Shown here: in pieces, positions 29,057 through 59,095 of the stretch
Layout: every line of letters starts with the position of its first letter
Position numbering within the stretch: position 1 is the first letter of the stretch
NCBI RefSeq assembly: GCF_021631985.1
Contig: NZ_CP070225.1
Span: 3,968,001-4,032,000, forward strand
Reading direction: 5' to 3'
Source: Sandaracinus amylolyticus
Lineage (GTDB): Bacteria > Myxococcota_A > Polyangia > Polyangiales > Sandaracinaceae
Length of the DNA: 64,000 nt
Made by a program: the position numbers and the translations under genes
Notes under the pieces: generated by a model
Seen by the model: only the letters and a program-made list of their open reading frames with translations
The model's database searches: none
What the model was told of the DNA's origin: nothing

Positions 29057-29060
29057 TTCA

Positions 29061-29342: not shown

Positions 29343-29376
29343 GACGAACCCGCGCTTGGCGCGGAGGAGGTGATCG

Positions 29377-37913: not shown

Positions 37914-38227
37914 TCGGCGCCCTCCGACTCGGCCTCGAGCTCCCCTGCCCGCTCTGCCCGCGGAGCCTGCCGGCGGGCAAGGACCTGTGCTCGAAGTGCG
38001 AAGGCGAGTTCCGCCCGACCCCGCTGCGCGCGTGGCGAGCCGTGCACGACGTCTCACTGCTCGAGCTGCAGGAGGACACGGGGCTCTCGAAGCGCACGGT
38101 CCTGCGCGCCGACGCGGGCGAACGGATGAGCCACGAGGCGGCGCGCGCGCTCGCGAAGCGCACGGGCCTGCACTGGCGTGTGTTCCGGCCGAAGACGAGC
38201 GCGCCCGCGGGCGCGGGAGGTGTGTGA
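37910..38227 (+). CDS. zinc-ribbon plus HTH protein
   Basis: A 105-residue protein with two Cys pairs at the start (PCPLCPRSL and LCSKCEGEF) and an HTH-like second half (HDVSLLELQEDTGLSKRTVL, then MSHEAARALAKRTG). It shares the segment TPLRAWR with the HTH gene at 36,965, so the two may have a common origin. ATG coupled to the GIY-YIG stop. Function unknown. Confidence 0.6.
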   Translation: MIGALRLGLELPCPLCPRSLPAGKDLCSKCEGEFRPTPLRAWRAVHDVSLLELQEDTGLSKRTVLRADAGERMSHEAARALAKRTGLHWRVFRPKTSAPAGAGGV

Positions 38228-41267: not shown

Positions 41268-41283
41268 CCACGCGCTGGGGTGA

Positions 41284-43086: not shown

Positions 43087-43138
43087 GAGGCGCGTCGTGC
43101 GTCGCGCGCGAGGCTGAGACCATCATGACGCGCGCGAC

Positions 43139-43176
43139 ATGACGCGCGCGGCATGATGCGCGCGTCATCATTGTCG
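43139..43176. promoter_or_regulatory. 38-bp hairpin element, copy 1
   Basis: Arms ATGACGCGCGC (43139-43149) and GCGCGCGTCAT (43158-43168) flank GGCATGAT. A 13-bp direct repeat CATGACGCGCGCG lies at 43124 and 43138. The 38 bp recur at 58715-58752 with one difference. It lies in the divergent region between the portal and protease genes, 32 bp from the protease start codon. Confidence 0.8.
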
Positions 43177-43208
43177 CCCTCGATCGTGCTTCGCAGAGTC
43201 CCTCGCGC

Positions 43209-44864
43209 ATGCCGGGCGACGCGAGCAGCGAGACGACCACCGCGAGCGAGACAATCGCTCCGTCGGTCTTCGTGCGCGCAGTCGCGGACGGCGAGTGGGA
43301 AGTCGTCGATCGCGCGAGCGGGGAGCGCGTCGGCGAGACGCACGCATCGCGGAACGCGGCGCTCGACGCAGCGCTCGCCGAGCTCGGCGACGTGCTCAAG
43401 GGACCGCACCTCCGGGACGACAAGACGGGCGAGACGGTCGGGCAGTGGCGCTGGCTCGATGCGACCAGCGAGGAAGACGAAGCCGACGTGCTCGACGCGG
43501 ACGGCAACGTCGCGCGCCCGCGCATCACCGCGGCCGCGATCGACTCGATGGCGGCGAACCTGAACGCGTCGCCGATGCCGCGCCCGATCGACGGCGGCAA
43601 GGTGCCCAGCGACTTCGCGCCGAGCGAGGTGCACGGCACCTACGAGGACTCCGGCACGCCCGCGAACGGCTGGGCGCACGCCGCGGTGCCGTTCGTGAAC
43701 GACAAGGGCCGCACGCACCTCGCGCTGCGCGCCGAGCTCTGGCCGACGGTCGCGCGCGAGGTCGATCGCGGACGCCTCGCCTACGGCTCGGTGCACGTCG
43801 AAGGCGACGACATGGACGACACCGGCGCGATCGAGGGCGCGACGCTCGAGTCGCACGCGCTCACGAACCGCCCGGTGGTGCAGACGCTCCTGCCGAGCAC
43901 GGCGATGTTGAGCCGCGGCCGGCGTGCCGTGGTGACCCTGCGATCGCGAGGGAAGGACACGATGACGAAGCCGAAGGTCATGACTCTGCGCGGCGCCGCG
44001 CTCACCGCGCTCACCGAGCTGTGCGCGCTCATCGGGATCGAGTTCAGCGAGGAGATGGACGCGGACGAGTGGTCGTCGCCGGCCGTCTCGCGCGTGCGGG
44101 CGCTGAAGCAGCTCGCGGTGGGCGAGCAGGTGATCGAGGCGCTGCCGAAGGGCGGCGGCGATCCGGCGGCCGCGGTGACCGCGGCGTACGCCGCGCACCG
44201 CAAGGCGGTCTCGACGAAGCGCGCCGAGGGCGGCACCGCGGAGGGCGGGACCGAGGGCGCGACCGCTCCGGCGGCTTCGGCCGAGGCGACGCAGCTCGCG
44301 GACCTGCTCAAGGAGAAGGTCGGCGTCGCGACCGACGCGGAACTGCTCGCGTGGGTCACCGAGAACGTCGACGAGATCGCGGCGCTCGCGGAGGACGATG
44401 ACGCGGCCCCGGCGGGGACCGGCGAGGGCGCGGCCGTCACTGCGTCGAAGGGCGGCAAGGCGAAGGGCACGAAGCTCGCGCTGTCGCTCGCGCTGAATCG
44501 CATCGCCACGCTCGAGGCGCAGGTCGGTGATCGCGTCGTCGAGATGGTCGACGCGGACGTCGCGGCCGGAAAGGTCCCGACCGCGGAGCGCGACGAGTAT
44601 CTCGAGCTCGCTCGCCTCAACGGCGCGCTCTACTCGAAGCTCACGAAGAACGCGCGCGCGGTGCCGACGGGTCGAGTCGCGCAGTCGACCGAGGCGCGTC
44701 TCGGCAAGGGGCCGACCGGCAATGCTGGCCCGGTGGCCGAGGCGGACCTCGACGACGAGGAGAAGGTGACCTTCGAGGCGCTCCTCGCGATGCGCCTGTG
44801 GGACCGGAACGTCTGCGCCGCGAAGGCGCGCGAGACGACCGAGGAGCGTCGCGCGCGGGCGTGA
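43209..44864 (+). CDS. Mu I-like head protease with scaffold C-terminus
   Basis: A 551-residue protein: the first 250 residues fit the Mu I-type prohead protease (DGNVARPRITAAAIDSMAANL, SGTPANGWAHAAVPFVND, LESHALTNRPVVQTLLPS is the typical block with catalytic-site neighbours). The second half is helical, Ala/Glu-rich and scaffold-like. An internal ATG at 43,962 (TKPKVMTLRGAALTALTELC), preceded by GGGAAGGACAC, could make the scaffold alone, as in Mu I/Z and lambda C/Nu3. It cleaves scaffold and capsid during maturation. Confidence 0.78.
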   Translation: MPGDASSETTTASETIAPSVFVRAVADGEWEVVDRASGERVGETHASRNAALDAALAELGDVLKGPHLRDDKTGETVGQWRWLDATSEEDEADVLDADGNVARPRITAAAIDSMAANLNASPMPRPIDGGKVPSDFAPSEVHGTYEDSGTPANGWAHAAVPFVNDKGRTHLALRAELWPTVAREVDRGRLAYGSVHVEGDDMDDTGAIEGATLESHALTNRPVVQTLLPSTAMLSRGRRAVVTLRSRGKDTMTKPKVMTLRGAALTALTELCALIGIEFSEEMDADEWSSPAVSRVRALKQLAVGEQVIEALPKGGGDPAAAVTAAYAAHRKAVSTKRAEGGTAEGGTEGATAPAASAEATQLADLLKEKVGVATDAELLAWVTENVDEIAALAEDDDAAPAGTGEGAAVTASKGGKAKGTKLALSLALNRIATLEAQVGDRVVEMVDADVAAGKVPTAERDEYLELARLNGALYSKLTKNARAVPTGRVAQSTEARLGKGPTGNAGPVAEADLDDEEKVTFEALLAMRLWDRNVCAAKARETTEERRARA

Positions 44865-44897
44865 TCCCGGCGCCAGCACGAACACGGAGAAGGCGAC

Positions 44898-45329
44898 ATG
44901 GCAGCTCTCACGCAGGACAAGAAGCGCGACGTGCTCGGCGAGGATGGCGTCCTCGAGAGCATCGGCGCGGCCGCGAACGCGGTGTGGTTCAACGGCTCGC
45001 TCATCGCGCGCAACGCGGGCGGCTACGGCATCGCCGCGACCAGCGCGGCGGGCCTCGAGATCGTCGGCGTCGCGGACGGCGGCGGCAACAACACCGGCGG
45101 CGCGAACGGCGCGAAGGAGATCAAGCTCCGTCGCGGTCAGGTCGAGGGCATCGCCGCGCCGACGCTCGACATCACCGACGTCGGCCTCGACGCGCGCACC
45201 GTCGACGACGGGACCGTCGGCGGCACCGCCGACACCGCGACCGGTCTGCCCGCGGGCCGCATCGTCGCGTACCGCAACAGCAAGGCCTACGTCGAGATCG
45301 GTCGGTTCCGCGGCGTCAACGCGCCGTGA
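44898..45329 (+). CDS. candidate head decoration protein
   Basis: A 143-residue beta-rich, Gly/Ala/Thr-rich protein (AANAVWFNGSLIARNAGGYG, then EIVGVADGGGNNTGGANGAK and GRIVAYRNSKAYVEIGRFRG), located between the protease and capsid genes, where small capsid decoration or stabiliser proteins are usual. It has its own ribosome-binding site (GGAGAAGG). The name is positional; no family domain was confirmed. Confidence 0.6.
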   Translation: MAALTQDKKRDVLGEDGVLESIGAAANAVWFNGSLIARNAGGYGIAATSAAGLEIVGVADGGGNNTGGANGAKEIKLRRGQVEGIAAPTLDITDVGLDARTVDDGTVGGTADTATGLPAGRIVAYRNSKAYVEIGRFRGVNAP

Positions 45330-45367
45330 GGCCCTGACGCGCCCTCAAGCATCGGGAGACAGACGTC

Positions 45368-46303
45368 ATGGCGATCACGAACTACGCGACGAACTACGCG
45401 GCGGCGACGACCGCGTTCCACCAGGGCTTCGAGGAGCTCTTCAATCGGCAGCGCACGCCGCTGTTCTCGATGATCTGCGAGGAAGTGCCGGTTACCGGGC
45501 TGACGCTCGAGGCCCCCTTCCTCGGCGACGACTCGCCGGTGCGGAAGTGGATCGGGAGCAAGCGCTTCCAGGACCTGCGCTCGTTCCGGCAGAGCTACCC
45601 GGTCGAGCCGTACGAGAAGAGCCTGCGCATCCCCGCGCTCAACGTGCGGCACGACTCGAGCGGCGCGATCGCGCGGCGCATCTCGGCGTTCCTGCAGAGC
45701 GTCGTGAGCTACTTCGACAAGCCGGTGTTCGACATGCTCATGTCGAACCCCGTCGGGTTCGACGGCGTCGCGCTGTGCTCGACCTCGCACCCGTTCGGAC
45801 CGAACGGCGGCGTGCAGTCGAACAAGTCGAACAACCCGCTCTCGCACTCCGAGTACCGCGCCGCCCTGAAGACGATGGGCGGCTGGCTCTCGGAGAACGG
45901 CGAGCCGCTCGAGATGAGCGGCACGGTGCTGCTCGTGGGCACCGACCAGGAGGACATCGCGCTCGAGGTCGCCGGCGTCGACAAGCCGGTGAACGTCGGG
46001 CAGACGGGCACGCTCGACGCGAACGCGAACGTGGTCGGCGTGACGACCGTCAAGAACGTGTTCCAGGGCCGCACGACGGTCATCGTCTCGCCGCGCGTGA
46101 GCGCGACGAAGTGGGCGGTGCTCGACATGAGCAAGCCGGGGCTCGCGCCGCTCGTGATCGGCGTCGCGCGCAAGCCCGAGGCGATCGCGATGGACAAGCC
46201 CGACAGCCCGGCGCGCTTCGAGCGCGACGACTGGGAGGGCTCGATCGAGGCGGACTTCGCGCTCGGCGCGGGCGTCTGGCCGACGCTCTTCGGGAATCTC
46301 TGA
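45368..46303 (+). CDS. major capsid protein, Mu gpT-like
   Basis: A 311-residue protein fitting the Mu gpT-type major head subunit: FEELFNRQRTPLFSMICEEV, then SKRFQDLRSFRQSYPVEPYE, MLMSNPVGFDGVALCSTSHP and VLLVGTDQEDIALEVAGVD, ending AVLDMSKPGLAPLVIG and FERDDWEGSIEADFALGAGV. It makes the icosahedral shell. Length is close to Mu gpT (about 305). A tRNA-like sequence and a hairpin follow its stop. Confidence 0.82.
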   Translation: MAITNYATNYAAATTAFHQGFEELFNRQRTPLFSMICEEVPVTGLTLEAPFLGDDSPVRKWIGSKRFQDLRSFRQSYPVEPYEKSLRIPALNVRHDSSGAIARRISAFLQSVVSYFDKPVFDMLMSNPVGFDGVALCSTSHPFGPNGGVQSNKSNNPLSHSEYRAALKTMGGWLSENGEPLEMSGTVLLVGTDQEDIALEVAGVDKPVNVGQTGTLDANANVVGVTTVKNVFQGRTTVIVSPRVSATKWAVLDMSKPGLAPLVIGVARKPEAIAMDKPDSPARFERDDWEGSIEADFALGAGVWPTLFGNL

Positions 46304-46333
46304 CCTATCGGCCTGCCCGGCTAGGGCCGGCGC

Positions 46334-46381
46334 GTCCGGCGTCGAGAGCGCGAGCAGTCGGGTCCTGCTCGAGCACCGGAC
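46334..46381 (+). other. nested hairpin after the capsid gene
   Basis: GTCCGG (46334-46339) pairs with CCGGAC (46376-46381), and inside it GAGCAG (46352-46357) pairs with CTGCTC (46365-46370) around the 7-nt loop TCGGGTC. It lies between the capsid stop and the tRNA-like gene. It could be a processing or termination structure; no T-run follows. Confidence 0.45.
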
Positions 46382-46386
46382 CTCGT

Positions 46387-46460
46387 AGCGGTGTGGGGGA
46401 GAAGCCGTCCCCGCCGGCCTCATAAGCCGGAGATCGCTGGTGCGAATCCAGCCGCCGCTC
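46387..46460 (+). tRNA. tRNA-like gene, anticodon CAT (Met/Ile2-type), degenerate loops
   Basis: A cloverleaf folds: acceptor AGCGGTG with CGCCGCT (one G-U pair), D stem GGGG/CCCC, anticodon stem CCGGC/GCCGG with loop CTCATAA (anticodon CAT), 5-nt variable loop, and T stem GCTGG/CCAGC. The D loop AGAAGCCGT lacks the usual GG and the T loop is TGCGAAT rather than TTCGAAT, so D-T loop contacts would be weak. No CCA is encoded. It lies in the capsid operon on the transcribed strand. It might be a phage tRNA, a decaying tRNA or a tRNA-mimic processing signal. Confidence 0.6.
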
Positions 46461-46480
46461 TGCCTTTTTGGAGGAGCCAC

Positions 46481-46984
46481 ATGGAGCCGCAGCTGATCCA
46501 GCAGGAGACCCGCCGCCGTGATCTGCGCGCGTACGAGCCGCGCGTGATGCTCGAGATCACCGTCCGCCCGCTCTCGCAGGTGGTCGAGGGACACGTCGTG
46601 CCGCAGGGCACGCACCGCATCCTCGTCGCCGAGTCGCGCGTCGACGCGGTTCGCGAGCTCGTCGAGACCGAGAAGGATCGCGCGATGCTCGCGCAGGCGC
46701 GCGAGATGTTCGAGCGCGAGCTCTCACGCTGGACGGCGACGGGCCAGAAGGCCGAGACGTTCGGGGGCTCGCTCGAGCGCGAGTTCCACAAGATCGCTGG
46801 GCGTGGTCTGGCTCCGATCACGTCGCTGAAGGTGCTCCCCGGCACGCACGCGCCGATCGTCAGCGACGACGAGGTGAAGAGCGCGGGCGTGGCGGCCGCG
46901 ATGCTCTCGCAGCTCGAGCGCATGCAGTCGCGCGGCGACGCCGACGCGAGCGACGAGAAGGGCGCGCGCAGCAAGAAGAGCTGA
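46481..46984 (+). CDS. hypothetical virion/morphogenesis protein
   Basis: A 167-residue protein (MEPQLIQQETRRRDLRAYEP, then ILVAESRVDAVRELVETEKD, then EREFHKIAGRGLAPITSLKV). The start is chosen at 46,481 because GGAGG precedes it by 6 bp, and the longer upstream frame would read through the tRNA-like sequence. It lies between the capsid and DUF1320 genes, so a head-tail connector or minor head role is likely. No family recognised. Confidence 0.6.
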   Translation: MEPQLIQQETRRRDLRAYEPRVMLEITVRPLSQVVEGHVVPQGTHRILVAESRVDAVRELVETEKDRAMLAQAREMFERELSRWTATGQKAETFGGSLEREFHKIAGRGLAPITSLKVLPGTHAPIVSDDEVKSAGVAAAMLSQLERMQSRGDADASDEKGARSKKS

Positions 46985-47002
46985 GCGCGCGACGGAGTCG
47001 GC

Positions 47003-47449
47003 GTGTACCTGACCGAGCAGTATCTGCGCGAGCTCTTCGGGTCGAACGAGGTCTCTGCCCTCTGTCCGACTCCGGCGGAGCTCACGCGCGTGATCGAGGC
47101 GGCGGAAGCCGAGACCGAGACCGCGCTGCAGAACGGCGGGTACCGCTCGGCCGTGCCGAGCTCGGTGTACTCGACCCTCGAGGCGTGTCCGAAGGCGATC
47201 CGCCTGCTCGCGTACGGCGCGTGGATCGAGCTCGCGCACGGCCGCAAGCGCGTCGAGATCCCCGCGCAGTTCCTCGAGTATGTGCGGAAGCTCGATCTCG
47301 TGCGGACCGGGAAGTACGAGATCCCGGGCGTCGAGAAGGACGTCGCGCGCGCGGTCGGCGGCATCCTCTCGAGCGACACGTCGCCGACATCCTCGACCTC
47401 GCGTCAGCAGGTGTTCGGCCGCGGCTCGTTCCGCGACGGTGGGTACTGA
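47003..47449 (+). CDS. DUF1320 / Mu gp36-like head-tail connector
   Basis: A 148-residue protein with the DUF1320 pattern: YLTEQYLRELFGSNEVSALC, then LTRVIEAAEAETETALQNGG, YSTLEACPKAIRLLAYGAWI. In Mu this is gp36, a connector placed between capsid and tail genes, as here. GTG start. The C-terminus (SSTSRQQVFGRGSFRDGGY) is flexible. Confidence 0.78.
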   Translation: MYLTEQYLRELFGSNEVSALCPTPAELTRVIEAAEAETETALQNGGYRSAVPSSVYSTLEACPKAIRLLAYGAWIELAHGRKRVEIPAQFLEYVRKLDLVRTGKYEIPGVEKDVARAVGGILSSDTSPTSSTSRQQVFGRGSFRDGGY

Positions 47450-47450
47450 C

Positions 47451-47897
47451 GTGGGCGTGCGTGTCGAGGGAGCGCGCGAAGCGTCGGAACTGCTCGGCGG
47501 GATCGCTGCGCGGCTCCGCGAGCCCACCCCCGCGCTCCGCGCCGAGGCAGACCGCATGCTCGCCGAGGCGCGTGCGTCGATCGGGTCGCGTACCGCGCCC
47601 GACGGCTCGGACTGGCCCGCACCGAAGAAGACGACCGCACGCGCGGGAGAGCGCGGGCGCCCGCGCGCGCCGACGCGTCGATCGGGTCGCCTCGCAGCAT
47701 CGGGCCGCGTGCTCGCGGAGCAGGCCGAGGCGATCGTCGAGTTCACCGCGCCCTACGCCGGCTTCGTGCAGGACGGCACCGGCCACATGGAGCCTAGGCG
47801 CTTTCTGCCGTTCGACGGGGATACGCCGCGCGACGAGGGGTCGCTGCGCGGTCTCGAGCAGCGCGTCGGCGACTGGATCGTGCGGGGTGCGCGATGA
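47451..47897 (+). CDS. virion morphogenesis protein, Mu gpG-like
   Basis: A 148-residue protein fitting the Mu gpG / phage virion morphogenesis family: RVEGAREASELLGGIAARLR, then PDGSDWPAPKKTT, AIVEFTAPYAGFVQDGTGHM and EPRRFLPF. Such proteins help complete the tail. GTG start 1 bp after the DUF1320 stop. Its stop overlaps the next start by 4 bp. Confidence 0.7.
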   Translation: MGVRVEGAREASELLGGIAARLREPTPALRAEADRMLAEARASIGSRTAPDGSDWPAPKKTTARAGERGRPRAPTRRSGRLAASGRVLAEQAEAIVEFTAPYAGFVQDGTGHMEPRRFLPFDGDTPRDEGSLRGLEQRVGDWIVRGAR

Positions 47898-48409
47898 CGA
47901 AGCGCGCCATGCTGAAGGCCGCCGAGGAAGTGCTCGCGGGCACGATCGGAGGCGTGCGCACCGTCGACGCGGGCTCGCTCGAGCGCGGCGCGTACGCCGG
48001 CGTAACCGACGAGCAGTTGCGGATGTCGGTGCTCGTGAAGGCGAGCTACGAAGTCGAGGTCGTCGAGGACGACACGACGGGGATCGTCGCCAACGAGAGC
48101 GCGAACCTCTCGATCGACAAGCTCACGGTGCGCGTGCGGCTCGCGTTCTCCACCGAGAGCGAGCTCAACGCCGACGAGCGCCTCGCGGTCCGCGCGACGG
48201 CGTTCGAGACGGCCGACACCTGCCGCGACGCGCTCGCGTTCGCGGGGAACCTCCACGCGACGAGCGAGGGCGTGCTGACGCGCCTCGCAGGCGACGCGCT
48301 CAACCGCCGCGGCCCGGTGCGCACTGCGCGCGAGGACTGGGCGGCGCGCATCTACGTCGTCGAGTTCCTGATGACCGGACTGATGCACCGCGTGCGCGCG
48401 GTGGCGTGA
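47894..48409 (+). CDS. candidate tail terminator or completion protein
   Basis: A 171-residue protein (LRMSVLVKASYEVEVVEDDT, then LTVRVRLAFSTESELNADER and ADTCRDALAFAGNLHATSEG). Alpha/beta with a long helix, the size and place (between gpG-like and tail tube genes) of tail terminators. ATG coupled to the previous stop. Positional call; family not recognised. Confidence 0.55.
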   Translation: MTKRAMLKAAEEVLAGTIGGVRTVDAGSLERGAYAGVTDEQLRMSVLVKASYEVEVVEDDTTGIVANESANLSIDKLTVRVRLAFSTESELNADERLAVRATAFETADTCRDALAFAGNLHATSEGVLTRLAGDALNRRGPVRTAREDWAARIYVVEFLMTGLMHRVRAVA

Positions 48410-48416
48410 GGGCACC

Positions 48417-49670
48417 ATGACGCTCGAGATCGATCGGCTGCGGTACGTGGGGCTCGACGAGGAGCCGACCGGCGATGCGAACTACGGGAAGATCCGCACG
48501 ATCCCCGGCACGTTCCTCGCGCTGCCGTACATGGAAGGGTCGCTGAAGATCGACCCGGACACGACGAACCTCGACCCGATGGCGGGCAAGGTCGGGATCG
48601 ACGACTACGACGTGCAGATCCCGGGGCCCAAGAAGGTCACCGCGGCGTTCGACATCCCGCTGCACTCGCACGGTCTCGACCTGAACGGCGTCAACGCGGC
48701 GCCGACGATCAGCACGTGGGCGTTCCTGCGGCTGCTGAAGATCTGTCTCGGCGGCGTGGTCGCGACGACGAACCCCGGCGCGCCGACGCTCGTCGTCGCG
48801 GGCACGACGATCAACACCGTCACCGTCACGACGGGCCACGGCGCGCGCTTCCAGCGCGGCAGCGTGATCGCGTGCCAGACGGTCTCCGGATCGACCGCGC
48901 TCGAGGCGAAGGAGGTCGCTTCGGTCGCGGGTGACGTCGTGACCGTGAAGGAGGCGTTCAGCGCGATCCCGACCACCGGCACGCAGGTGCGCGGCGGCGT
49001 CACCGCCTACCCGACGCGCGATCCCGACACGAGCGCGCAGCTGCTCATCGAAGGTCGCGAGCTGTCGGACCGCTTCGCGATCATGGGACTGAACGGCGGC
49101 TTCGGGATCACGGCGCAGTTCGGCCAGGACGCGCAGCCGAGCAAGTTCTCGTTCAACCTCGGCGGCGCCGACTGGTCGCGCCTCGCCGATGGCTCCGGCG
49201 TCACGACGCCGACCTACTCGCCGTTCCAGCTCATCCGCAGCGTCGATGCGCCGCTCACGGTGCCGGTGTTCGGCACGTCGACGCGCGCGCTCGTGCACCA
49301 GGCCGACTTCAAGCTCGAGCTCGCGCTGCAGTACATGGACGAGCGGAGTGGCTCGGGCGTGAACGGCATCCGCCGCAAGCGCCGCCTGCCCGGGCGCCCG
49401 CTCGTGAAGGGCTCGTTCGTCGAGCGCTTCGAGGACCAGACGCGCTGGGCGTCGTACGAGGCGCGCGAGATCCGCTCGGTCTACCAGCAGCTCGGCACGA
49501 TCGCGGGGGGGATCTGCCTCATCAGCGTTCCGCGTGTGCAGTTCGGGCAACCGAAGCGCGCAGCCGCGGGCGAGGCCGCGGGCACCGAGGTGCCCTTCTG
49601 GAGCTTCCCCGACACGACCGGCGGCACGACCGAGCTCGAGACGGCGGCGATCCGCTTCCACTTCGTCTGA
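48417..49670 (+). CDS. major tail tube protein
   Basis: A 417-residue beta-rich protein (IRTIPGTFLALPYMEGSLKI, then VTAAFDIPLHSHGLDLNGVN, FGITAQFGQDAQPSKFSFNL and LVHQADFKLELALQYMDERS). It lies upstream of the tail chaperone pair and tape measure, the standard place of the tail tube protein. The length suggests an extra Ig-like insert (LVVAGTTINTVTVTTGHG region). Expected to polymerise around the tape measure to form the non-contractile tube. Confidence 0.72.
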   Translation: MTLEIDRLRYVGLDEEPTGDANYGKIRTIPGTFLALPYMEGSLKIDPDTTNLDPMAGKVGIDDYDVQIPGPKKVTAAFDIPLHSHGLDLNGVNAAPTISTWAFLRLLKICLGGVVATTNPGAPTLVVAGTTINTVTVTTGHGARFQRGSVIACQTVSGSTALEAKEVASVAGDVVTVKEAFSAIPTTGTQVRGGVTAYPTRDPDTSAQLLIEGRELSDRFAIMGLNGGFGITAQFGQDAQPSKFSFNLGGADWSRLADGSGVTTPTYSPFQLIRSVDAPLTVPVFGTSTRALVHQADFKLELALQYMDERSGSGVNGIRRKRRLPGRPLVKGSFVERFEDQTRWASYEAREIRSVYQQLGTIAGGICLISVPRVQFGQPKRAAAGEAAGTEVPFWSFPDTTGGTTELETAAIRFHFV

Positions 49671-49681
49671 GAGGAGCCCGC

Positions 49682-50332
49682 ATGATGGAGACGAGAAAGC
49701 CGTTCGACGTGATTCGCTTGCACGACCCGGCGATCGACTGGGACGCCGTGAAGCGTCCTCAGCCGTGCCCGAACGAGCGATGCAGCAACGGGCTCGACGA
49801 GGCCGTCGACGACGGGCGCTGCGAGACGTGCGGCGGCGAGGGCTTCGTGCGCCTGTACGACGAGGGCCGGTTCTGCACCGAGCGCGACCTCGAGAAGGTG
49901 CTCGTCCACACGTTCCCCGGCGAGACGCCCGTGTACTTCGTGTGTCGGCGTCTCACCACGCCGCAGCGACAGAAGTACATCTCCCTCGCGACGTCGCACG
50001 ACGACGAGTACGTGCGCGCGTTCCAGGCCGGCGTGATCGAGATCCGCTTTCCCGATCGCCCGAAGTACGTCCCGAAGTGGCTCGCGAAGGGCGCGCTCAC
50101 GATGGACGACAAGGAGCTGCGCGACCTCGAGAAGGACCACGGGATCGAGTGGCCCGACTTGCTCGACGTGGGCTCGCAGATCCTCGCGAGGTCGAACGTC
50201 CCTTTCGGCTGTACGCCCTCCTATCCGGTGCTGCGCTCGTCGGTGGACGCGTGGGTCGCGGTCCAGCGACTCTGTGCGGAGCGGAGGGCGAGCGCTGCTC
50301 CCCCGAGCAGCGACGGGCCCAAGGCACCCTAG
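49682..50332 (+). CDS. tail assembly chaperone (G-like) with zinc-ribbon start
   Basis: A 216-residue protein lying between the tail tube and tape measure genes, where the tail chaperone G is found. An unusual feature is the DnaJ-like Cys cluster near the start (QPCPNERCSNGLDEA, then CETCGGEGFV). The body is FVCRRLTTPQRQKYISLATS, then VPKWLAKGALTMDDKELRDL. A second frame without a start, shifted by -1, continues past its stop to the tape measure start, so a -1 frameshift product (GT) is expected. Confidence 0.65.
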   Translation: MMETRKPFDVIRLHDPAIDWDAVKRPQPCPNERCSNGLDEAVDDGRCETCGGEGFVRLYDEGRFCTERDLEKVLVHTFPGETPVYFVCRRLTTPQRQKYISLATSHDDEYVRAFQAGVIEIRFPDRPKYVPKWLAKGALTMDDKELRDLEKDHGIEWPDLLDVGSQILARSNVPFGCTPSYPVLRSSVDAWVAVQRLCAERRASAAPPSSDGPKAP

Positions 50333-50751
50333 CCGGCAGCGGCGAGGAGTCGCGTCGTGTCCGCCTCGAGCTGCGACGCGCGTACCGCTGCCCGTGCGAC
50401 GGCGAGTCGGAACGATGGTCCGGCCCCGTCGACGAGCGGCAGGCGCGCGCGTGCTCGAGCGAGCTCGACGCTGCCGAGCAGGCCACGCACGTGCGCCCTG
50501 AGACATGCCCGTGGGCCGGCTTCTTCGACCCGGACGTGCAGCTCGTGCGCTGGGCGCACGGCTTCTGGTCGGCGGGTCTGCACCACGCGTGGGGTGACGA
50601 GCCCGAGTCGTGGCTCGTCGAGGCGGTGGCGTTCTACCACCGCGCGCTCGAGGCCGCGGCGCAGGCCGCTCGAGAGAAGCCGCAGGGCCCCGGCCCCGGC
50701 GGGATCACCGTCGAAGAGAAGCCCGGAGGAGGGCTGAAGATCCGTGGCTGA
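50305..50751 (+). CDS. tail chaperone frameshift extension (GT-like)
   Basis: An open frame shifted -1 relative to the G-like gene reaches a stop at 50,751, overlapping the tape measure start by 8 bp. From about 50,305 it reads like a real protein (LRRAYRCPCDGESERWSGPV, VRWAHGFWSAGLHHAWGDEP, ESWLVEAVAFYHRALEAAAQ). No ATG or GTG with a ribosome-binding site starts it, so it is probably made by ribosomal frameshifting near 50,300 from the gene ending at 50,332. The exact shift site is not fixed, so the given left end is approximate. Confidence 0.6.
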   Translation, partial: EQRRAQGTLAGSGEESRRVRLELRRAYRCPCDGESERWSGPVDERQARACSSELDAAEQATHVRPETCPWAGFFDPDVQLVRWAHGFWSAGLHHAWGDEPESWLVEAVAFYHRALEAAAQAAREKPQGPGPGGITVEEKPGGGLKIRG

Positions 50752-52471
50752 CGAAGTGAAGCACGTGCGCGTCGTGCTCGAGGCGGTCGGGGGAGCCCAG
50801 GCCGCCGAGGACGCGTCGCGCTTCAAGGCGTCGATCGACGGCCTCACGCAGGCCGAGGGCGTCGCGAGCGACGAGACCGCGGCGCTCCGCGCCGAGCTCG
50901 AGCGACTGCGAGCCCAGACGACGACGCTGCAGCAGGCGCAGCAGCAACAGCAGCGTGGACAGGCAGACTTCGCGCGGCTCGCGCAGGAGAGCACCGCGAA
51001 GGCGATCGACTTCACCACGAAGCTCGCCGGCGCGGCGGGTGCGGTGCAGTCGCTCACGGGCGCGCTCGGTGTGCAGGGCGGCGCAGCGGGTCTGCTCGCG
51101 AGCATGGCGGCGAGCGCCGCGGCGAGCGCGCAGCTCGGTGGCACGTTCGGGCCGAGCGGCGCCCTCGTCGGCGGCATCCTCGGCGCCGCGATCCCCGCGA
51201 TCTCTGCGCTCTCCGAGCGTTTCGAAACCGCGATCGAGCGCACGCAGCGGCTCCGCGAGGAGACCGACCGGCTACGCGAGTCGATGATGGCGCAGCGCCT
51301 CGAGGCCGACATCGCGGGCGCGCTAGCCGATCCGTCGATGGCCGGCGCGATCCTCGGCGCGGTTCCGCCCGAGGTGCTGCAACAGCAGCGCGCGCTTGCG
51401 GCCGCGCAGGCGCGCGAGCTCGACGCCGATCGCTCGCGTCTCGAGCGGTCGCGTCAGCGCGACGGGCTCCGCCGCGAGGACACGACGCTCCCGGAGGTCG
51501 AAGCGGAGCTCAACGCCGCACGACAGCGCATGGCGTTGCTCGATCAGGAGATCGAGCGACGCGGCGCCCTCGAGGCCGCGCAGCGCCGACAGACTGAGGC
51601 GACCGGGAGACTGACCGCGGTGCAGAGCGAGCAGGACCTCGCGACGCAGGCGCGGCTCCAGGCCTCGCAGCGCGCCGAGGAGGCCTATCAGCGCGAGCAG
51701 GAGGCGTGGGAGCGCTACAACGAGTCGATTCTCCGCGGCCTGCAGCAGGAGCAGGACGCGCGGCAGCGCCTGCTCGACCTCATCACCGAGCAGTACGAGA
51801 AGCAACGCTCCGAGGAGGAGCGCACGCTGCGCGCGACGCTCGAGGCGAAGGCCGCGAACGAGCGCGTCGACGCGGAGACCGACCAGCGCGAGGAGGCGCG
51901 TCTCGCGCGCGCGCTGCGCCGGCTCGAGCAGGACGCGAACGAGCGCCAGGAGAGCCTCGACCGGCAGACCGAGAAGCGCGAGGAGGAGCTCCAGACGTTC
52001 TCCGACCTCGCGAGCGGCGTGAGTCGCTCGCTCGTCACCGCGGTGAGCGAGATCGCGAGCGGCGCGAAGACCTCCGAGGAGGCCTTCAAGGGGATGCTCG
52101 CGAGCTTCCTCGCGGCGATCGCCGAGCAGGCTCTCATCAAGGCGGCGTTCGAGTACGCCGACGCGGTCGCATCCGCGGCGCGGCAGGACTGGGGCGGCTT
52201 CGCGTCGCACATCGCCGCGGGTATCGCGTTCACCGGCGTTGCGGTCGCGACGGGCGCGGCGGCCGGTGCGGTCTCGGCGCCGCCCGGACAGGGGCAGCAG
52301 GCATCGTCGCCCGATCGCGTCGCGGCGAACGACGGCAACTACGGGCGCACCATGTTCGTCAACAACTGGAACGCGCCCGTGGTGTCGGCGGGCACCGAGG
52401 CCGACGTCGGGCGCACGCTCGATCGCCTCGGGCGCCGCGCCTACCAGCGCTACGGGAGGGTCGCGGCGTGA
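50744..52471 (+). CDS. tape measure protein (short)
   Basis: A 575-residue protein with a long helical, coiled-coil centre (LRAELERLRAQTTTLQQAQQ and LARALRRLEQDANERQESLD), hydrophobic patches (LLASMAASAAASAQLGGTFG, IAAGIAFTGVAVATGAAAGA) and a TMP-like C-terminal segment (EEAFKGMLASFLAAIAEQAL). It follows the chaperone pair directly with a GTG start. By the usual 1.5 angstrom per residue rule it would set a tail tube under 90 nm, so the tail is short for a siphovirus. Confidence 0.78.
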   Translation: MADEVKHVRVVLEAVGGAQAAEDASRFKASIDGLTQAEGVASDETAALRAELERLRAQTTTLQQAQQQQQRGQADFARLAQESTAKAIDFTTKLAGAAGAVQSLTGALGVQGGAAGLLASMAASAAASAQLGGTFGPSGALVGGILGAAIPAISALSERFETAIERTQRLREETDRLRESMMAQRLEADIAGALADPSMAGAILGAVPPEVLQQQRALAAAQARELDADRSRLERSRQRDGLRREDTTLPEVEAELNAARQRMALLDQEIERRGALEAAQRRQTEATGRLTAVQSEQDLATQARLQASQRAEEAYQREQEAWERYNESILRGLQQEQDARQRLLDLITEQYEKQRSEEERTLRATLEAKAANERVDAETDQREEARLARALRRLEQDANERQESLDRQTEKREEELQTFSDLASGVSRSLVTAVSEIASGAKTSEEAFKGMLASFLAAIAEQALIKAAFEYADAVASAARQDWGGFASHIAAGIAFTGVAVATGAAAGAVSAPPGQGQQASSPDRVAANDGNYGRTMFVNNWNAPVVSAGTEADVGRTLDRLGRRAYQRYGRVAA

Positions 52472-53277
52472 CGCTCTACGTCGAGACCGGCTTCGACCTC
52501 GAGGCGCAAGGGCCGATCACGTTCACGCTCACCGAGAACGGGATCGCGGTCGGCGTCGTGCAGATGATCGCGGGGAAGTACTTCCTCACGATCGACGGCA
52601 CGACGATCACGCGGCCCGACTTCGAGACCGTGCTCGCGTTCGGGTGGGCGCCGTTCCTGCCCGCGCTGAAAGCCGCGCTCGAGGCGGTCGGCGCGGGCAC
52701 GTACACCGTGACCTTCAACCCGGTCACGCAGCGCATCGCGATCAGCGTGACGGGCGTCGCGACGTTCTCGATGTCGGGCTTCAACGCGCACGCCCTGAAG
52801 GTGCTCGGCTACACGGGCGTGCTTGGCAACGCGGCGTTGCACATCGCGATGCGGGCGCCGTGGTACCGCATCCAGACGAACCTCGGGATGCTCACCGACT
52901 TCTTCTGGGACGAGGAGGAGGACGGGGATCTCGGCGAGGAGGTGATCGCCCACGACGCGACCGACTCCGCGATCGCCGAGGACGAGCTCCCGGTGAAGTT
53001 CGACGCCGTGCTGCCGCACGAGCCGCGCGCGATCGTGTGGAACGAGTTCGCGAGCACATCGACGCCCTTCACGTGGCAGCGGCTCTTCCGGCACGTGCGC
53101 AACGTGCTGCCGCTCTGCCTCGACTTCTCAGACGGCACGATCACGCGGAAGTTCTTCATCCGCATGCGCCGCGAGGGGCGTCTATTCGCGCCGAGGCCGC
53201 GCCCCACGCCGGTCGGGAAAAACTGGTGGGAGGCGGCCGACATCGCGATCATGGCGCGCCGCATCGGGCACACCTGA
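52468..53277 (+). CDS. tail-tip protein downstream of the tape measure
   Basis: A 269-residue protein with a beta-rich N-terminal half (GPITFTLTENGIAVGVVQMI, then TGTYTVTFNPVTQR-type strands) and a more aromatic C-terminal half (IVWNEFASTSTPFTWQRLFR, then KFFIRMRREGRLFAPRPRPT). Placed after the tape measure, like distal tail proteins. GTG coupled to the tape measure stop. No family domain confirmed. Confidence 0.55.
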   Translation: MTLYVETGFDLEAQGPITFTLTENGIAVGVVQMIAGKYFLTIDGTTITRPDFETVLAFGWAPFLPALKAALEAVGAGTYTVTFNPVTQRIAISVTGVATFSMSGFNAHALKVLGYTGVLGNAALHIAMRAPWYRIQTNLGMLTDFFWDEEEDGDLGEEVIAHDATDSAIAEDELPVKFDAVLPHEPRAIVWNEFASTSTPFTWQRLFRHVRNVLPLCLDFSDGTITRKFFIRMRREGRLFAPRPRPTPVGKNWWEAADIAIMARRIGHT

Positions 53278-53288
53278 TGCGCGCCGCG

Positions 53289-53603
53289 CTACTCGCAGTT
53301 CAGCAGCTCGAGCGCGTCGTCGAGCGAGACGCAGACCACGGTGCCGTCGAGGTTGTCCGCGTGACCGCATCCCGGCATGTCGCCGGGGCCGGAGCACATC
53401 TCGATCGCGCCCCTGCAGAGCGCGCCGTCCTGACGCTCACACACGATGGTTTCGTCGTCCGCGCAGCCCATCGTGATCAGGCACACGTCGGGCGTCGTCG
53501 GCGAGGGGTCCGGATAGCACTCGCACGCTGGGACCGACTTCACCGTCTCGTTCGCGCACGCCACGAGGAGCAGTGCCGCGATCACCCCCACCACGTTTCG
53601 CAT
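53289..53603 (-). CDS. prophage lipoprotein (cargo gene), antisense in the tail module
   Basis: A 104-residue lipoprotein on the strand opposite to the tail genes. Signal and lipobox: MRNVVGVIAALLLVAC. The mature part is rich in Cys (ACECYPDPSP, CLITMGCAD, VCERQDGALC, MCSGPGDMPGC), suggesting a compact disulfide-bonded protein. It lies between the tail-tip gene and the large tail protein gene, with its start only 11 bp from the next plus-strand start. Such inserted reverse genes are often morons expressed in the lysogen; a role in phage exclusion is possible but unproven. Confidence 0.7.
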   Translation of the reverse strand: MRNVVGVIAALLLVACANETVKSVPACECYPDPSPTTPDVCLITMGCADDETIVCERQDGALCRGAIEMCSGPGDMPGCGHADNLDGTVVCVSLDDALELLNCE

Positions 53604-53614
53604 GGAGCGACAGC

Positions 53615-56299
53615 ATGAGTCTCGATCGCATCATCGCAACCGGGCGCGGGAAGCTGAACGCACGCATCGAGATCGAGGGGTTCGGCTACCAGCCGGTCAC
53701 GCGCGGCGCGATGGTGCAGACGCTCGCCGACGGTCGCGAGCGCGTGAACGGGCTGAAGCTCGAGGGGATGAAGCTCGCCGCGCGCCTGAACCTGCCGACG
53801 GGCAGCATGGAGGCGCAGGGGTTCACGGTGCTGTGCGTCGACCCGACGCCCGCGCGGAAGATCATCGAGGCCTTCCGGAAGCGCCCGACGCACCGCACGT
53901 GGCTCTTCGGCTACATCTCGAAGAGCGCGACCACAGTCCCGGTGTTCAGCACCGACGGCTGGCCGAGCGAGGGCGTGCTGCACATCGGGACCGAGGCGAT
54001 CCGATACACCGGCAAGACCTCGACGACGTTCACGGGCTGCACGCGCGGCTACTGGAACAGCGAGCCGCAGGCGCACTTCGCGGCCGACGCGAGCTCGATC
54101 GCTGCGGCGTTCGAGGCGGACAACGCGGCGATGGCGTTCCCGGAGGTCACCGACCGTCCGACGACGATCGAGGGCCGCCGGCTTTTCTTGCACCTCTACG
54201 GCGAGGGCGACGCGCCGCTCGGCGAGGGCACGCAACGATGGCAGGGCGTGTGCCGCACGAGCCCGAAGTTCGAAGGGCTGAAGGTCACGTTCAACGTCGA
54301 CCCGCCGACGTCGATCCTCGAGCAGCAGATCGGCGGCGACGTCGCGAGCCCCGTCGGCATCCGCGGGATCTACTACCCGTGGTCGGCGCCCTTCGTGCTC
54401 TCGCTGTCGCGCGGCGGGACAGCAGCGAACGCACCGGGCGGGACGCTCGTAACGGTCCGCGTTGTCGGCTTCTTCGCCGACCAGGCGACTTTCTGCGCGG
54501 CGCTCACGAGCGCGATCGCGACAGCGACCGCGGGGTGGACCGGGACGATCGTCGCGCGCCCAACCTCGATCGGCTTCGATCTCGTCTACACCACCCCGTC
54601 CGCGAGCCAGCGATGGGTCGCGGTGAACGAGGGTCGCGCGGGCTGGCTCGCGATCGACGAGCGCACCTTCGACAAGCCGACGAACGGCGCGTGGTTCAAC
54701 GAGGGGACCGGTGCGACGGAGACGGTGTCGGTCGCTGCCTCCACCGCCTACGTCTACTCGTTCGCGTCGCCGGTGCCTCGCGCGTACTTCGGAGCGCGGA
54801 CGCCGTTCACCGACGCCGATCCCCGAGGCGGCACGTTCACCGAGCCCACGCAGGCCGCGACGTGGCCGGCGGGCCGCATCTACCTAGGCGGCCTCGTCGC
54901 GCTCTCGGCCGACATGGTGATGGCCGAAGAGGGCGACCCGCCGGTCTTCTCTCGCGTCGGCGCCGTCGATGCGGCGAATCGCTGGGTGAGCATGGGCGAG
55001 CTCGCGCAGTTCCGTCCGCTCGGGCCCGAGACGCGCTTCCGCCTCGGCCGCGTGTTCGCGCGCGGGACCGTCGCGGACCTCGTCGACGCGCTGCTCGCGA
55101 CGTCGGCCGACATCGCGAACGCCGGCGCCGCGCCGCTCCTGCGCGAGAGCGACATCGACGCGGTGGCGTTCCGCGCGGCGGTCGCGGAGGGCATCGACAC
55201 GCCGGCGAGCAACGATCGCGCGTTCATCGCCTTCGGTCAGGACTGCACTCTGGGCGAGCTGCTCGGGCCCGAGCTCGTCGCCCGCGGGCTCCACTGGACT
55301 CTCTCGAGCACCGGACAGCTCGGCGCGCGCGCGGCACGGCTCGCTGCGCAGACCGAGGCCGCAACGCTCCGCATCCGCGTCGATCCGACGCGCGACGAGG
55401 GCGCGAAGCCCGTCGGAGGCATGCCGACGCTCGAGGAGGGCGCGCTCTGGGGCTTCGTGAGCGACCTCGTGTACCTCACCGGCTACGACCCGCTCGAGGA
55501 CGAGCACACCGGGCCCGAGGTCCGCTTCATCAACGTGCAGGCGCGATCCCCGACGCGCGTCGCGAAGAAGCTTGAGCTCGCGCAGAAGAGCATCCCGGGC
55601 GCGCGCCTCACGACGTCAGGCCCGCGCGGCGGCACCGCGGGCGAGCCGACGCAGGAGCAGGTCGGGCAGATCGGCCGCTTCTGGCTCGGTCTGCTCGGCG
55701 GCACGTACGACATCCTCACGAGCCAGGTCGGCGCGGCGGCGTTCAACGCGCAGCTCGGCGACGCGATCGCGACGAGTTCGCGCTATGTGCCCGACGAGGA
55801 TGGGACGCTCGGCGTCGACGATCTGCTCGGCGTGCTCATCGGCTTTGCGTGGGACCTCGACGCGATGCGCGGCACGCTCGAGCAGCTCACGCACTCACGC
55901 CCGCTCGTCGGCTACTCGCCCGAGTTCCGCATCGACTCGCACGTGGGCGCGAGCGACGTGTGGGAGCTCGGTTGCAACGTCGCGGAGGAGAGCGACCAGC
56001 CGATCGGGACATGGTTCCAGGTCGGCGATCGCGTGCGCGCGGTCGAGTGGAACACGCTCACCCCGAGCGAGGCCGCGGGGACCATCAGCTCGGTCGTCGA
56101 CGAGCAGACCATCGAGGTGACGTTCGACGCGCCGTGGGATCCGTTCGGCGGCAGCACGGGCCTGTGGACGGTGCGCCCTCTTATCTCCGACGAGCAGAAC
56201 CGAGCCGACAACCTCGGTCGCTTCGCGTTCGTCGCGGAGAGCACCGGCCGCGTGCCGTTCGCCGACACGACAGAGGACGCACGGGTGATCGCGCCATGA
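53615..56299 (+). CDS. large tail protein (tail hub / host-specificity type)
   Basis: An 894-residue protein, the longest gene in the prophage, placed after the tail-tip gene. The start MSLDRIIATGRGKLNARIEI is followed by strand-rich domains (WLFGYISKSATTVPVFSTDG, ILEQQIGGDVASPVGIRGIY) and, near the end, TFDAPWDPFGGSTGLWTVRP. The size and position fit the tail hub or central fibre, but no gpJ-type signature was confirmed. The start is chosen at 53,615, after GGAGCGACAGC. Next gene overlaps by 4 bp. Confidence 0.62.
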   Translation: MSLDRIIATGRGKLNARIEIEGFGYQPVTRGAMVQTLADGRERVNGLKLEGMKLAARLNLPTGSMEAQGFTVLCVDPTPARKIIEAFRKRPTHRTWLFGYISKSATTVPVFSTDGWPSEGVLHIGTEAIRYTGKTSTTFTGCTRGYWNSEPQAHFAADASSIAAAFEADNAAMAFPEVTDRPTTIEGRRLFLHLYGEGDAPLGEGTQRWQGVCRTSPKFEGLKVTFNVDPPTSILEQQIGGDVASPVGIRGIYYPWSAPFVLSLSRGGTAANAPGGTLVTVRVVGFFADQATFCAALTSAIATATAGWTGTIVARPTSIGFDLVYTTPSASQRWVAVNEGRAGWLAIDERTFDKPTNGAWFNEGTGATETVSVAASTAYVYSFASPVPRAYFGARTPFTDADPRGGTFTEPTQAATWPAGRIYLGGLVALSADMVMAEEGDPPVFSRVGAVDAANRWVSMGELAQFRPLGPETRFRLGRVFARGTVADLVDALLATSADIANAGAAPLLRESDIDAVAFRAAVAEGIDTPASNDRAFIAFGQDCTLGELLGPELVARGLHWTLSSTGQLGARAARLAAQTEAATLRIRVDPTRDEGAKPVGGMPTLEEGALWGFVSDLVYLTGYDPLEDEHTGPEVRFINVQARSPTRVAKKLELAQKSIPGARLTTSGPRGGTAGEPTQEQVGQIGRFWLGLLGGTYDILTSQVGAAAFNAQLGDAIATSSRYVPDEDGTLGVDDLLGVLIGFAWDLDAMRGTLEQLTHSRPLVGYSPEFRIDSHVGASDVWELGCNVAEESDQPIGTWFQVGDRVRAVEWNTLTPSEAAGTISSVVDEQTIEVTFDAPWDPFGGSTGLWTVRPLISDEQNRADNLGRFAFVAESTGRVPFADTTEDARVIAP

Positions 56300-56964
56300 C
56301 GACGAGCGAGTACGAAGGACGGGTGCTGCTCCCGAGCACGCGCCTCGAGGGCCGCGAGTCGCTCTCGTCGCACGCGCTGCGGCTGCTCGCGAGCAACGCG
56401 CACCACCTCGCCGACCAGAGGTGCAATCACCTCGTGAACTGGGTGGCGCCGAAGATCTCGCTCGCGTCGCCCGGGCAGACGACGGTGGTCGCGCGCATCC
56501 CGAACCCCGTCTCGACGTCGTTCGTGCGCGTCGCGATGTACGGGCCGTTGCCTCTCACGCCGCGCGACGAGGGCCGCTCCTATCCGCTGCGCCTCGAGCT
56601 CGCGGGTGCAGCGAGCTCCGCGGGCACGGCGGTGACGTTCGCGGCGGTGCTGGTGCCCGCGCCGACGCTCGGCACCGACTACGTCACCGACTCGTCGATC
56701 ATCGCGAACCGCGGTGTGATCTTCGCCGCGACGACATCGACGACGCCGGCGTGGCTCGCCGCGGCGAGCGGGTCGAAGTTCTTCGAGCTCGATCCGTCGA
56801 TCGTTGCGGAGGGCTGGGGCGCGCGCCCGACGCTGCGCGACACCGGCGGAGAGCCGGCGAGCGTCGACACCTGCGAGGCGTGGCTCGTCATCTACGCGAA
56901 GTCGGCGGGGCCGGTCACGCCGCGCGTCTACGGCGTGCATCTCTCGGAGTACGTGGGGGCCTGA
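56296..56964 (+). CDS. tail-tip/baseplate protein
   Basis: A 222-residue beta-rich protein (QTTVVARIPNPVSTSFVRVA, then AGTAVTFAAVLVPAPTLGTD-type strands and GPVTPRVYGVHLSEYVGA). ATG coupled to the previous stop by 4 bp. No family recognised; structural role inferred from position. Confidence 0.55.
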   Translation: MTTSEYEGRVLLPSTRLEGRESLSSHALRLLASNAHHLADQRCNHLVNWVAPKISLASPGQTTVVARIPNPVSTSFVRVAMYGPLPLTPRDEGRSYPLRLELAGAASSAGTAVTFAAVLVPAPTLGTDYVTDSSIIANRGVIFAATTSTTPAWLAAASGSKFFELDPSIVAEGWGARPTLRDTGGEPASVDTCEAWLVIYAKSAGPVTPRVYGVHLSEYVGA

Positions 56965-57981
56965 ATGCCTGAATCGACGCGTGTTCCTTCGGTGCGCCGC
57001 ACCGTCCCGCTCGGCGAGGCTGTACAGGTCGGCAGATCCGTCGCGGCGCGGCAGTGGAGCGAGCTCGCGCCGCTCGTGAACTACCTGCGCGGCCGTGGCT
57101 CGGTGCTCATCCCCGGGCACGCGCCGATGCTCATCGTCGACGCCGCGGGCTCGCTCGGCCCCACCAATCGGAACCTGCGCTATCGCACGCGTCCGAGCGG
57201 ACGCGCGATCGCGCGCGTGTGGCTCTTCGAGCTCGTCGGGAACACGGGCGGCGACCGCGCGACAGTCAGCGTCGGAGCATCGACTATCTCCGTCGCAGTC
57301 GGGCCGCTCACGTCGTCGGCGGATCGCGCGTTCCTGCTCGTCGAGACCGCATCCAAGACGACGGCGATCTCGTCGATGACGGTCGCGCTCGCGGCGGTCT
57401 CCGGGGCGGTGCAGATCGTCGGTGTGACGTGCTGGGAGCTGCCGCGCGCGCAGCTCACGAAGGACGCGACGGACCTCGGGATCGACCTGGGCACGCTCGA
57501 CAGCGGGCGCCCGATCCTCGACCGCGACTACGAGTCTGTCGCGGGCGTGTGCGAGGCGCTCGCGAGCGCCGACGGCCGGCGCGTCGGGCTCGTGTCGTGG
57601 TGGGGCCCGCAGCTGCAATTCGCGAGCGGCACGTACGAGAGCGTGTTCGAGCTCCCGATCCGCATCGTCCCGCCGCGCGTCGGGATGGGCGACTCGATCC
57701 GAAGCTGCCAGTGGACGCTCTACGCGTGGTGCGACGTCGGCACGACCGGCGACGCGCGCATCGTCACGGACACGGGCGCGGTGAGCGGGCTCGCGTCCAT
57801 CACCGCGACGACCGGCACCTGGCTCGATCCGGGGGCGCGCGCGTTCCGCTGCGAGCAGGCGGGCACCGTCGACGGTCTGCCGAGCGGCACGTGGCCGACG
57901 GTGCAGCTCGAGGTGCGGCGCGCGAGCGGCGCGGGAAACGTCTACGTGCAGGGCTTCAACCTGTACGACGGGCTCTGGTGA
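56965..57981 (+). CDS. tail-tip/baseplate protein
   Basis: A 338-residue beta-rich protein starting directly after the previous stop. Similar style to its neighbour (ARVWLFELVGNTGGDRATVS, then VLCTW-like aromatic core SWWGPQLQFASGTYESVFEL and the end YVQGFNLYDGLW). Structural role inferred from position; it could be a receptor-binding or baseplate component. Confidence 0.55.
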   Translation: MPESTRVPSVRRTVPLGEAVQVGRSVAARQWSELAPLVNYLRGRGSVLIPGHAPMLIVDAAGSLGPTNRNLRYRTRPSGRAIARVWLFELVGNTGGDRATVSVGASTISVAVGPLTSSADRAFLLVETASKTTAISSMTVALAAVSGAVQIVGVTCWELPRAQLTKDATDLGIDLGTLDSGRPILDRDYESVAGVCEALASADGRRVGLVSWWGPQLQFASGTYESVFELPIRIVPPRVGMGDSIRSCQWTLYAWCDVGTTGDARIVTDTGAVSGLASITATTGTWLDPGARAFRCEQAGTVDGLPSGTWPTVQLEVRRASGAGNVYVQGFNLYDGLW

Positions 57982-58001
57982 GCGACGCGGTGGCGCGCCC
58001 A

Positions 58002-58535
58002 TCAGCGCACGTGGAAACGCGCGCGCAGGCGTCGCGACCCACTCATCCCCGCCCGCGCGGGCTCGCTGCTCGTTCGCACGTAGCGGCAGCCACAGTACAC
58101 ACGCGCGATGCCGTCCGCGAACTCGACCTCCCGCGTCACGCAGTCGAGCTCCGGAAGCGGCGGGTCACCAGTGCAGGTCCAACCCGAACTGCATGGCGTT
58201 CCGCTTCCGAAGTCGACCCTTCCACACAGAACCGCGAGCATCGGAGCGCCGCCTTCGCGAGCCTCCGGGAAGGGCACCTCGGCGTACCAGTTCGTCGACT
58301 GCGTTTCGTCCCACGACGCGTCGTTGCCGAGTCGACTCACGAGCGTCCGCTCGATCGAGCACTCCGCATCAATCGTCACCTGCGCGTCGGCGTCGTCGCT
58401 CGCGCCATCGCGTAGCGACTCGCCCGCGTCGACCATAGCGTCACCGAGATGCTCGACGACGTCGCTACCGCACGCCCACGCGCCCGCCGCGATCGCCGCA
58501 ACGAGCGCACCCGCTGTCCACCGTGGCTTCGTCAT
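58002..58535 (-). CDS. prophage lipoprotein (cargo gene), antisense before the fibre genes
   Basis: A 177-residue lipoprotein (signal TAGALVAAIAAGAWAC). The mature part has a Cys-rich segment (CGRVDFGSGTPCSSGWTCTG, then LDCVTREVEFADGI, VYCGCRYVRTS) that suggests disulfide bonds. It is convergent with the tail-tip gene and divergent from the next gene, with the second copy of the 38-bp hairpin element in the intervening 248 bp. Likely a moron expressed in the lysogen. It is not similar to the lipoprotein at 53,289 beyond general style. Confidence 0.7.
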   Translation of the reverse strand: MTKPRWTAGALVAAIAAGAWACGSDVVEHLGDAMVDAGESLRDGASDDADAQVTIDAECSIERTLVSRLGNDASWDETQSTNWYAEVPFPEAREGGAPMLAVLCGRVDFGSGTPCSSGWTCTGDPPLPELDCVTREVEFADGIARVYCGCRYVRTSSEPARAGMSGSRRLRARFHVR

Positions 58536-58711
58536 GACCGCGAGGCTCGCACGGCTGCTCTCGTGCTCGCAAACCGACCGCGCGCGCATGGGCCGTACGA
58601 CGCGCTCACCTCGCGAACTCGCACCAGAGCACGAGCGCCGCACTCTCGGACGGCGCCACGAGATACAGGGACGCACCGCATCCAAGCATGCTCGCACGCG
58701 ATGGCGTCCGG

Positions 58712-58752
58712 ATGATGACGCGCGCGGCATGGTGCGCGCGTCATCATTGTCG
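58712..58752. promoter_or_regulatory. 38-bp hairpin element, copy 2
   Basis: Perfect 14-bp arms ATGATGACGCGCGC (58712-58725) and GCGCGCGTCATCAT (58734-58747) flank GGCATGGT. Positions 58715-58752 match copy 1 at 43139-43176 with one difference. It lies in the divergent region, 31 bp upstream of the start codon at 58,784. The rest of that 248-bp region shows no gene. Confidence 0.8.
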
Positions 58753-58783
58753 GCCCGAGATCGCGCGCAAAGGCTGCGCGCGC

Positions 58784-59092
58784 ATGGGCCAGTACGAGTC
58801 GCAGGCAGCGCATCGGCCGCTCCCCGGGCCCGGCACGAAGGTCTCGTTCACCACGAGCGCGGGCGGCGAGGTCGATCTCTCCGCGCACCTCGGCAAGTAC
58901 CTGATCGTCATCGCGACCGCGAAGGTGCACATCCGCTCGGGCGTGCCCGGCTCGGTCGGAGCGCCGACGACGGACGACGTCTACCTGCCCGCCGACGTCT
59001 CGCAGGACTTCAAGGTCACCAACAGCCGCAGGGCGATCCGACTGATCGGCGCGGCCGCGGGCGACCTCCACTACTCGCTCGTCGACGAGTGA
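58784..59092 (+). CDS. small virion-associated protein
   Basis: A 102-residue beta-rich protein (VSFTTSAGGEVDLSAHLGKY, then LIVIATAKVHIRSGVPGSV, IRLIGAAAGDLHYSLVDE). It starts the fibre segment and carries the repeated hairpin leader, like the protease gene. It may be a small decoration, fibre connector or collar protein. No family recognised. Confidence 0.6.
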   Translation: MGQYESQAAHRPLPGPGTKVSFTTSAGGEVDLSAHLGKYLIVIATAKVHIRSGVPGSVGAPTTDDVYLPADVSQDFKVTNSRRAIRLIGAAAGDLHYSLVDE

Positions 59093-59095
59093 TCG

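Follow-up and report, generated by a model that had tools for sequence, protein, structure and literature searches.

The window analysed here, a 64,000-nt stretch at positions 3,968,001-4,032,000 of NZ_CP070225.1 within a genome of 10.96 Mb, contains a prophage with a Mu-like head. Two genes of this prophage, those for the portal protein and for a lipoprotein-like protein, run against the plus-strand structural operon, and a copy of a short duplicated element is located beside each (Table 1). The gene that follows copy 1, referred to below as the protease gene on account of its position, encodes a product with no Pfam or PHROG match. The two HTH proteins encoded further upstream are paralogous (40% identity over 55 aa, E 9e-08), and their genes, which lie shortly ahead of the terminase gene, are separated by one for a T5orf172/MUG113-domain protein. 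A tRNA-Met (CAU) gene is present at 46387-46460 inside the structural operon, after the major head gene and ahead of the next one, which probably starts at an ATG near 46482 rather than at 46391. Outside the structural region, positions 250-2458 contain a long coding duplication, with up to 83 nt repeated at no more than one mismatch ~1.3 kb apart.

Table 1. Prophage genes and parts of the duplicated element, with positions in the window
Feature	Position	Strand	Evidence or context
HTH_3 protein directly after RusA nuclease	36956-37378	+	Pfam PF01381, E 1.3e-05
HTH protein with CPLC...CSKC zinc-ribbon-like start	37910-38227	+	weak DZR_2/HTH_26
Terminase	39717	+	PHROG 38, E 6.5e-59
Portal protein (Mu type)	41284-43086	-	Pfam PF06074, E 4e-59; reversed relative to all relatives examined
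Copy 1	43118-43175		inverted repeat with 29-nt arms (29+29), 83% complementary; repeat search
Copy 1, left outward arm GCGCGCGTCATGATGGTC	43118-43135	-	31 nt before portal GTG 43086
Copy 1, right outward arm GCGCGCGTCATCATTGTC	43158-43175	+	33 nt before protease ATG 43209; sequence
First plus-operon gene after copy 1, 551 aa	43209-44864	+	position of Mu-like protease/scaffold gene
Major head protein, Mu gpT type	45368-46303	+	PF10124, E 1.5e-21
Lipoprotein-like gene, 177 aa, reversed	58002-58535	-	same-genus prophage lacks the gene at the corresponding place
Copy 2	58712-58752		perfect 14-bp arms and 8-nt loop (58712-58747), then TGTCG; two 14-bp units
Copy 2, right outward arm GCGCGCGTCATCATTGTC	58734-58751	+	32 nt before ATG 58784
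Fibre/tail-segment gene after copy 2, 102 aa	58784-59092	+	L014 homologue (18439), BLASTP E 1e-07

The element, ATGACGCGCGCGGCATG[A/G]TGCGCGCGTCATCATTGTCG, is 38 bp long and occurs at 43139-43176 and at 58715-58752, the two copies being identical at 37 of 38 positions. A sequence-only reading of the window had given these coordinates exactly, together with the single difference. Its hairpin arms of 11-14 bp are also confirmed (11 bp in copy 1 and 14 bp in copy 2, around a loop of 8 nt in both cases), and the distances that it reported from the end of the element to the start codon, 32 bp to the ATG at 43209 and 31 bp to the ATG at 58784, are correct and differ by 1 nt between the copies. Both copies do adjoin a reversed gene, the portal gene and the lipoprotein gene respectively, each at a head-to-head junction. 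The leaders downstream of the element, which had been described as related, resemble each other only moderately; 1.7% of random 31-mers from the window align equally well.

Direct repeats with no more than one mismatch reach at most 20-24 nt when the window is dinucleotide-shuffled (20 shuffles), versus 38 for the element. Perfect hairpins with arms of at least 11 bp occur ~1.9 times per shuffled window and so are not unusual alone. Because such hairpins are common, the significance of the element lies in its duplication, its placement and the mirror-image arm on the outer side of copy 1. With up to three mismatches allowed, the whole 10.96-Mb genome has two matches, both inside the prophage, which rules out a genome-wide repeat or a REP/MITE, and searches of viral and genome collections and of 184 genomes of the order returned nothing or chance-like matches. 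A possible third copy at 33109-33128 (CGACATGACGCGCGC) was rejected as a lone 15-nt match, without a hairpin, at the stop/start overlap of two coding frames. The 14-bp period, the differing frames at the two copies and an in-frame stop in copy 1, a TGA at 43140 that makes the element non-coding in the protease frame, exclude a coding repeat. As a feature, the element is well supported.

Copy 1 reaches further left than had been noted, to position 43118, giving an element of 58 bp in all. It is built from three tandem 14-bp direct units, CATGAYGCGCGCGN, that begin at 43124, 43138 and 43152, and GCGCGCGTCATSATKGTC points outward on both of its sides. The left outward arm, which is absent from the earlier description, is identical to the right arm at 16 of 18 positions and, located 31 nt from the portal GTG, mirrors the right side of the copy. 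The arms that face the three gene starts have GCGCGCGTCATSATKGTC in common, and the distance from the end of the arm to the start codon is near-fixed, at 31 nt for the portal gene, 33 nt for the protease gene and 32 nt for the gene at 58784. The outer GTC box is lacking on just one side, the left side of copy 2, which reads GCGCGCGTCATCATCCGG with CCGG in place of the box; no gene start is near there, the start of the reversed lipoprotein gene (58535) being ~177 nt away. As a control for the 18-nt arm, 20,000 random 52-mers from the window were searched in both orientations with up to two mismatches allowed, and the 44 matches in 40,000 tests are roughly as many as would arise from 52-mers that overlap the copies.

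From the head genes through the tail genes, the window prophage shares its gene order with a prophage in another genome from this genus (G001, loci L013-L015), with identities of 58% for the gpT-type protein and 66% for the product of the head gene that precedes it. No tRNA was found in the syntenic stretch (L014). The portal gene of G001 is not reversed and is on the same strand as its head genes, and a portal gene that shares its strand with adjacent head, protease or terminase genes was found in 12 of 12 relatives examined, G001 included. The counterparts of genes 56965 and 58784 are adjacent in L014, in that order, and the gap of ~30 bp between them contains neither a lipoprotein gene nor the element. 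Because the portal gene is collinear in relatives and the lipoprotein gene is absent from G001, both reversed genes probably represent a derived state. The element is absent from G001 and from the other relatives, which are without the reversed genes. Each copy in the window is located at a head-to-head junction of the kind that gene reversal creates, and neither tail-to-tail junction (41268-41283 and 57982-58001) has a copy. Read from these sequence comparisons, the element is a marker of the sites at which reversed genes interrupt the structural operon. An invertible segment around the portal gene was considered and rejected, as there are no flanking inverted copies. Peptide-pattern searches of viral and genome contig collections returned no relative of the portal or head protein. 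Upstream of an AAA-type gene, the G001 prophage also has a repeated palindrome, TGTCC(S)GGACA (L013, 13868-13941); these operator-like repeats were rejected as a counterpart of the element, as neither the portal gene nor the protease gene of G001 is nearby.

Scanning of 41000-59200 for sigma-70-like promoters (TTGACA/TATAAT-like hexamers 16-18 nt apart) gave no candidate, and the three arms do not jointly match any other known class of promoter. The plus arms have the GG-N10-GC of a sigma-54 promoter and the portal arm has GT, so that this signature is not common to all. Neither copy is listed by a scan for intrinsic terminators (GC-rich stem followed by a T run). There is nothing similar to the element before the terminase or before other plus-strand genes, and it is therefore not the mark of a complete late regulon.

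We consider it reasonably probable that the element acts as a divergent promoter/operator specific to the phage, bound by a phage regulator and restarting transcription after the reversed genes. This reading, which had been proposed for both copies, fits best given the symmetry of copy 1, the spacing of 31-33 nt and the fact that G001, with its uninterrupted operon, has no element. Its two-way aspect has support at copy 1 only, since the left side of copy 2 is without the outer GTC box and is ~177 nt from the start of the lipoprotein gene. Protein binding, promoter activity and the identity of the regulator we infer from sequence, and 'late' timing from gene content. On this model the element would be a control site in the DNA that is specific to the phage and most likely serves as the operator of a promoter; a dimeric phage-encoded DNA-binding protein would occupy the phased 14-bp units and RNA polymerase would initiate at or just past the outer TSATKGTC box, to give leaders of ~30 nt. 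With the box on both sides, copy 1 could drive transcription both ways, to the left through the reversed portal gene and to the right through the head operon; with the box on the right side only, copy 2 would drive the fibre operon. Such sites presumably became necessary when an ancestral single operon was cut by the reversal of the portal gene and the backward insertion of the lipoprotein gene. As there is neither a sigma-70-like promoter nor a terminator at the element, the model needs a phage regulator, and the two paralogous HTH proteins (36956-37378 and 37910-38227) are perhaps candidates, a guess made from the position of their genes. The gene for the late regulator Q is often found behind that for RusA in lambda-like phages, and for this reason the position of the HTH gene is suggestive only. 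It is decidedly unlikely, although conceivable, that the element is a portable restart site, such that a phage-specific promoter, one-way or two-way, is acquired at each break left by a flipped or backward-inserted gene, keeps the structural operon working and allows the orientation of structural genes to change freely.

Phased palindromic sites close to start codons could instead be silencing operators, at which a prophage repressor blocks transcription in lysogeny in a stoperator-like manner, the true promoters then being elsewhere or overlapping. Repressor sites are scattered near gene starts in mycobacteriophage L5, and possible binders are available here in the protein encoded at 27650-28876, which has a weak HTH_3 match, and in the HTH proteins encoded at 36956 and 37910. 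There are, however, two sites only, with none near the putative immunity region (26996-29377), and the 31-33 nt spacing and the restriction of the GTC box to sides facing a gene start suggest the geometry of a polymerase rather than mere blocking. Silencing therefore seems unlikely.

A structured leader RNA, a transcribed hairpin that controls the stability or translation of the downstream gene, had been put forward as the alternative to a promoter, and the constant distance to the start codon would suit it. Folding gives it support at copy 2, where a 15-bp stem folds better than shuffled sequences (z -2.7 sense, -3.8 antisense), but not at copy 1, where any advantage of the leader over shuffled sequences is unclear (z -0.9 to -1.8). 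Apart from the tRNA noted above, there is no Rfam match above the gathering score in 42900-59000. In addition, a plus-strand transcript that contains the copy-1 hairpin must start within the portal leader, and outer boxes laid out for two directions suit DNA. Recognition at the DNA level is favoured by the symmetric arms nearly equidistant from two genes, by the box that is missing where there is no near start and by folding at copy 1 that does not clearly exceed shuffles, and a leader RNA is accordingly the weaker alternative and very unlikely. A similarly low probability attaches to a recombination scar, either a functionless short stretch copied during the gene rearrangements or the end of a mobile cassette. 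Both copies are indeed at derived junctions beside a reversed gene, but there is no copy at the opposite end of either reversed gene (41268-41283 and 57982-58001), the element is unrelated to anything in the genome or the collections, and the mirrored arm and the spacing to the portal gene would be left unexplained.

Of the known phage systems, three offer parallels to a promoter/operator. In P2, the small phage zinc protein Ogr binds dyad sites before late operons, including divergent late promoters. One HTH protein of the window prophage has a CxxC...CxxC start reminiscent of such a protein; the prophage proteins scanned gave no Pfam match to the Ogr/Delta family. The late promoters of Mu (lys, I, P and mom) are activated by the phage protein C (PMC4461284). 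As well as the Mu-like head, the likeness here would be that each Mu late operon has an upstream phage-specific activator site and non-consensus promoter boxes (PMC4461284). The sequence and two-way layout of the element, a putative promoter, are, however, unlike those of Mu. No Mor/C-family activator was matched among the prophage proteins scanned, which included a part of the small ORFs. The ESAS of Cluster K mycobacteriophages are phage-specific 17-bp imperfect inverted repeats with short spacers, located just upstream of gene starts, that their authors regard as more likely to be DNA-protein binding sites, possibly promoters, than RNA hairpins (PMC3203893); the L5 repressor sites appear in that report as a contrast. 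The element is likewise a phage-specific inverted repeat just upstream of start codons. ESAS are, however, present in many copies, in the non-structural half of the genome, and occur together with a 13-bp SAS located at the ribosome site (PMC3203893), whereas the element is present in two copies, at structural genes and in two directions, and has no SAS (GGGATAGGAGCCC was not found in the leaders of either copy). The element would act in the manner of the Mu and P2 sites and resembles ESAS, and could at most be called a putative member of any of these groups.

As a control site, the element is of an ordinary and familiar phage kind; its association with reversed genes is unusual. If the promoter/operator interpretation is correct, it would provide a group of prophages with Mu-like heads, from soil bacteria with large genomes, with a concrete regulatory site, would yield a few candidate regulators and would be a clear case in which the expression of structural genes has been kept after a core gene, that for the portal protein, was turned round.
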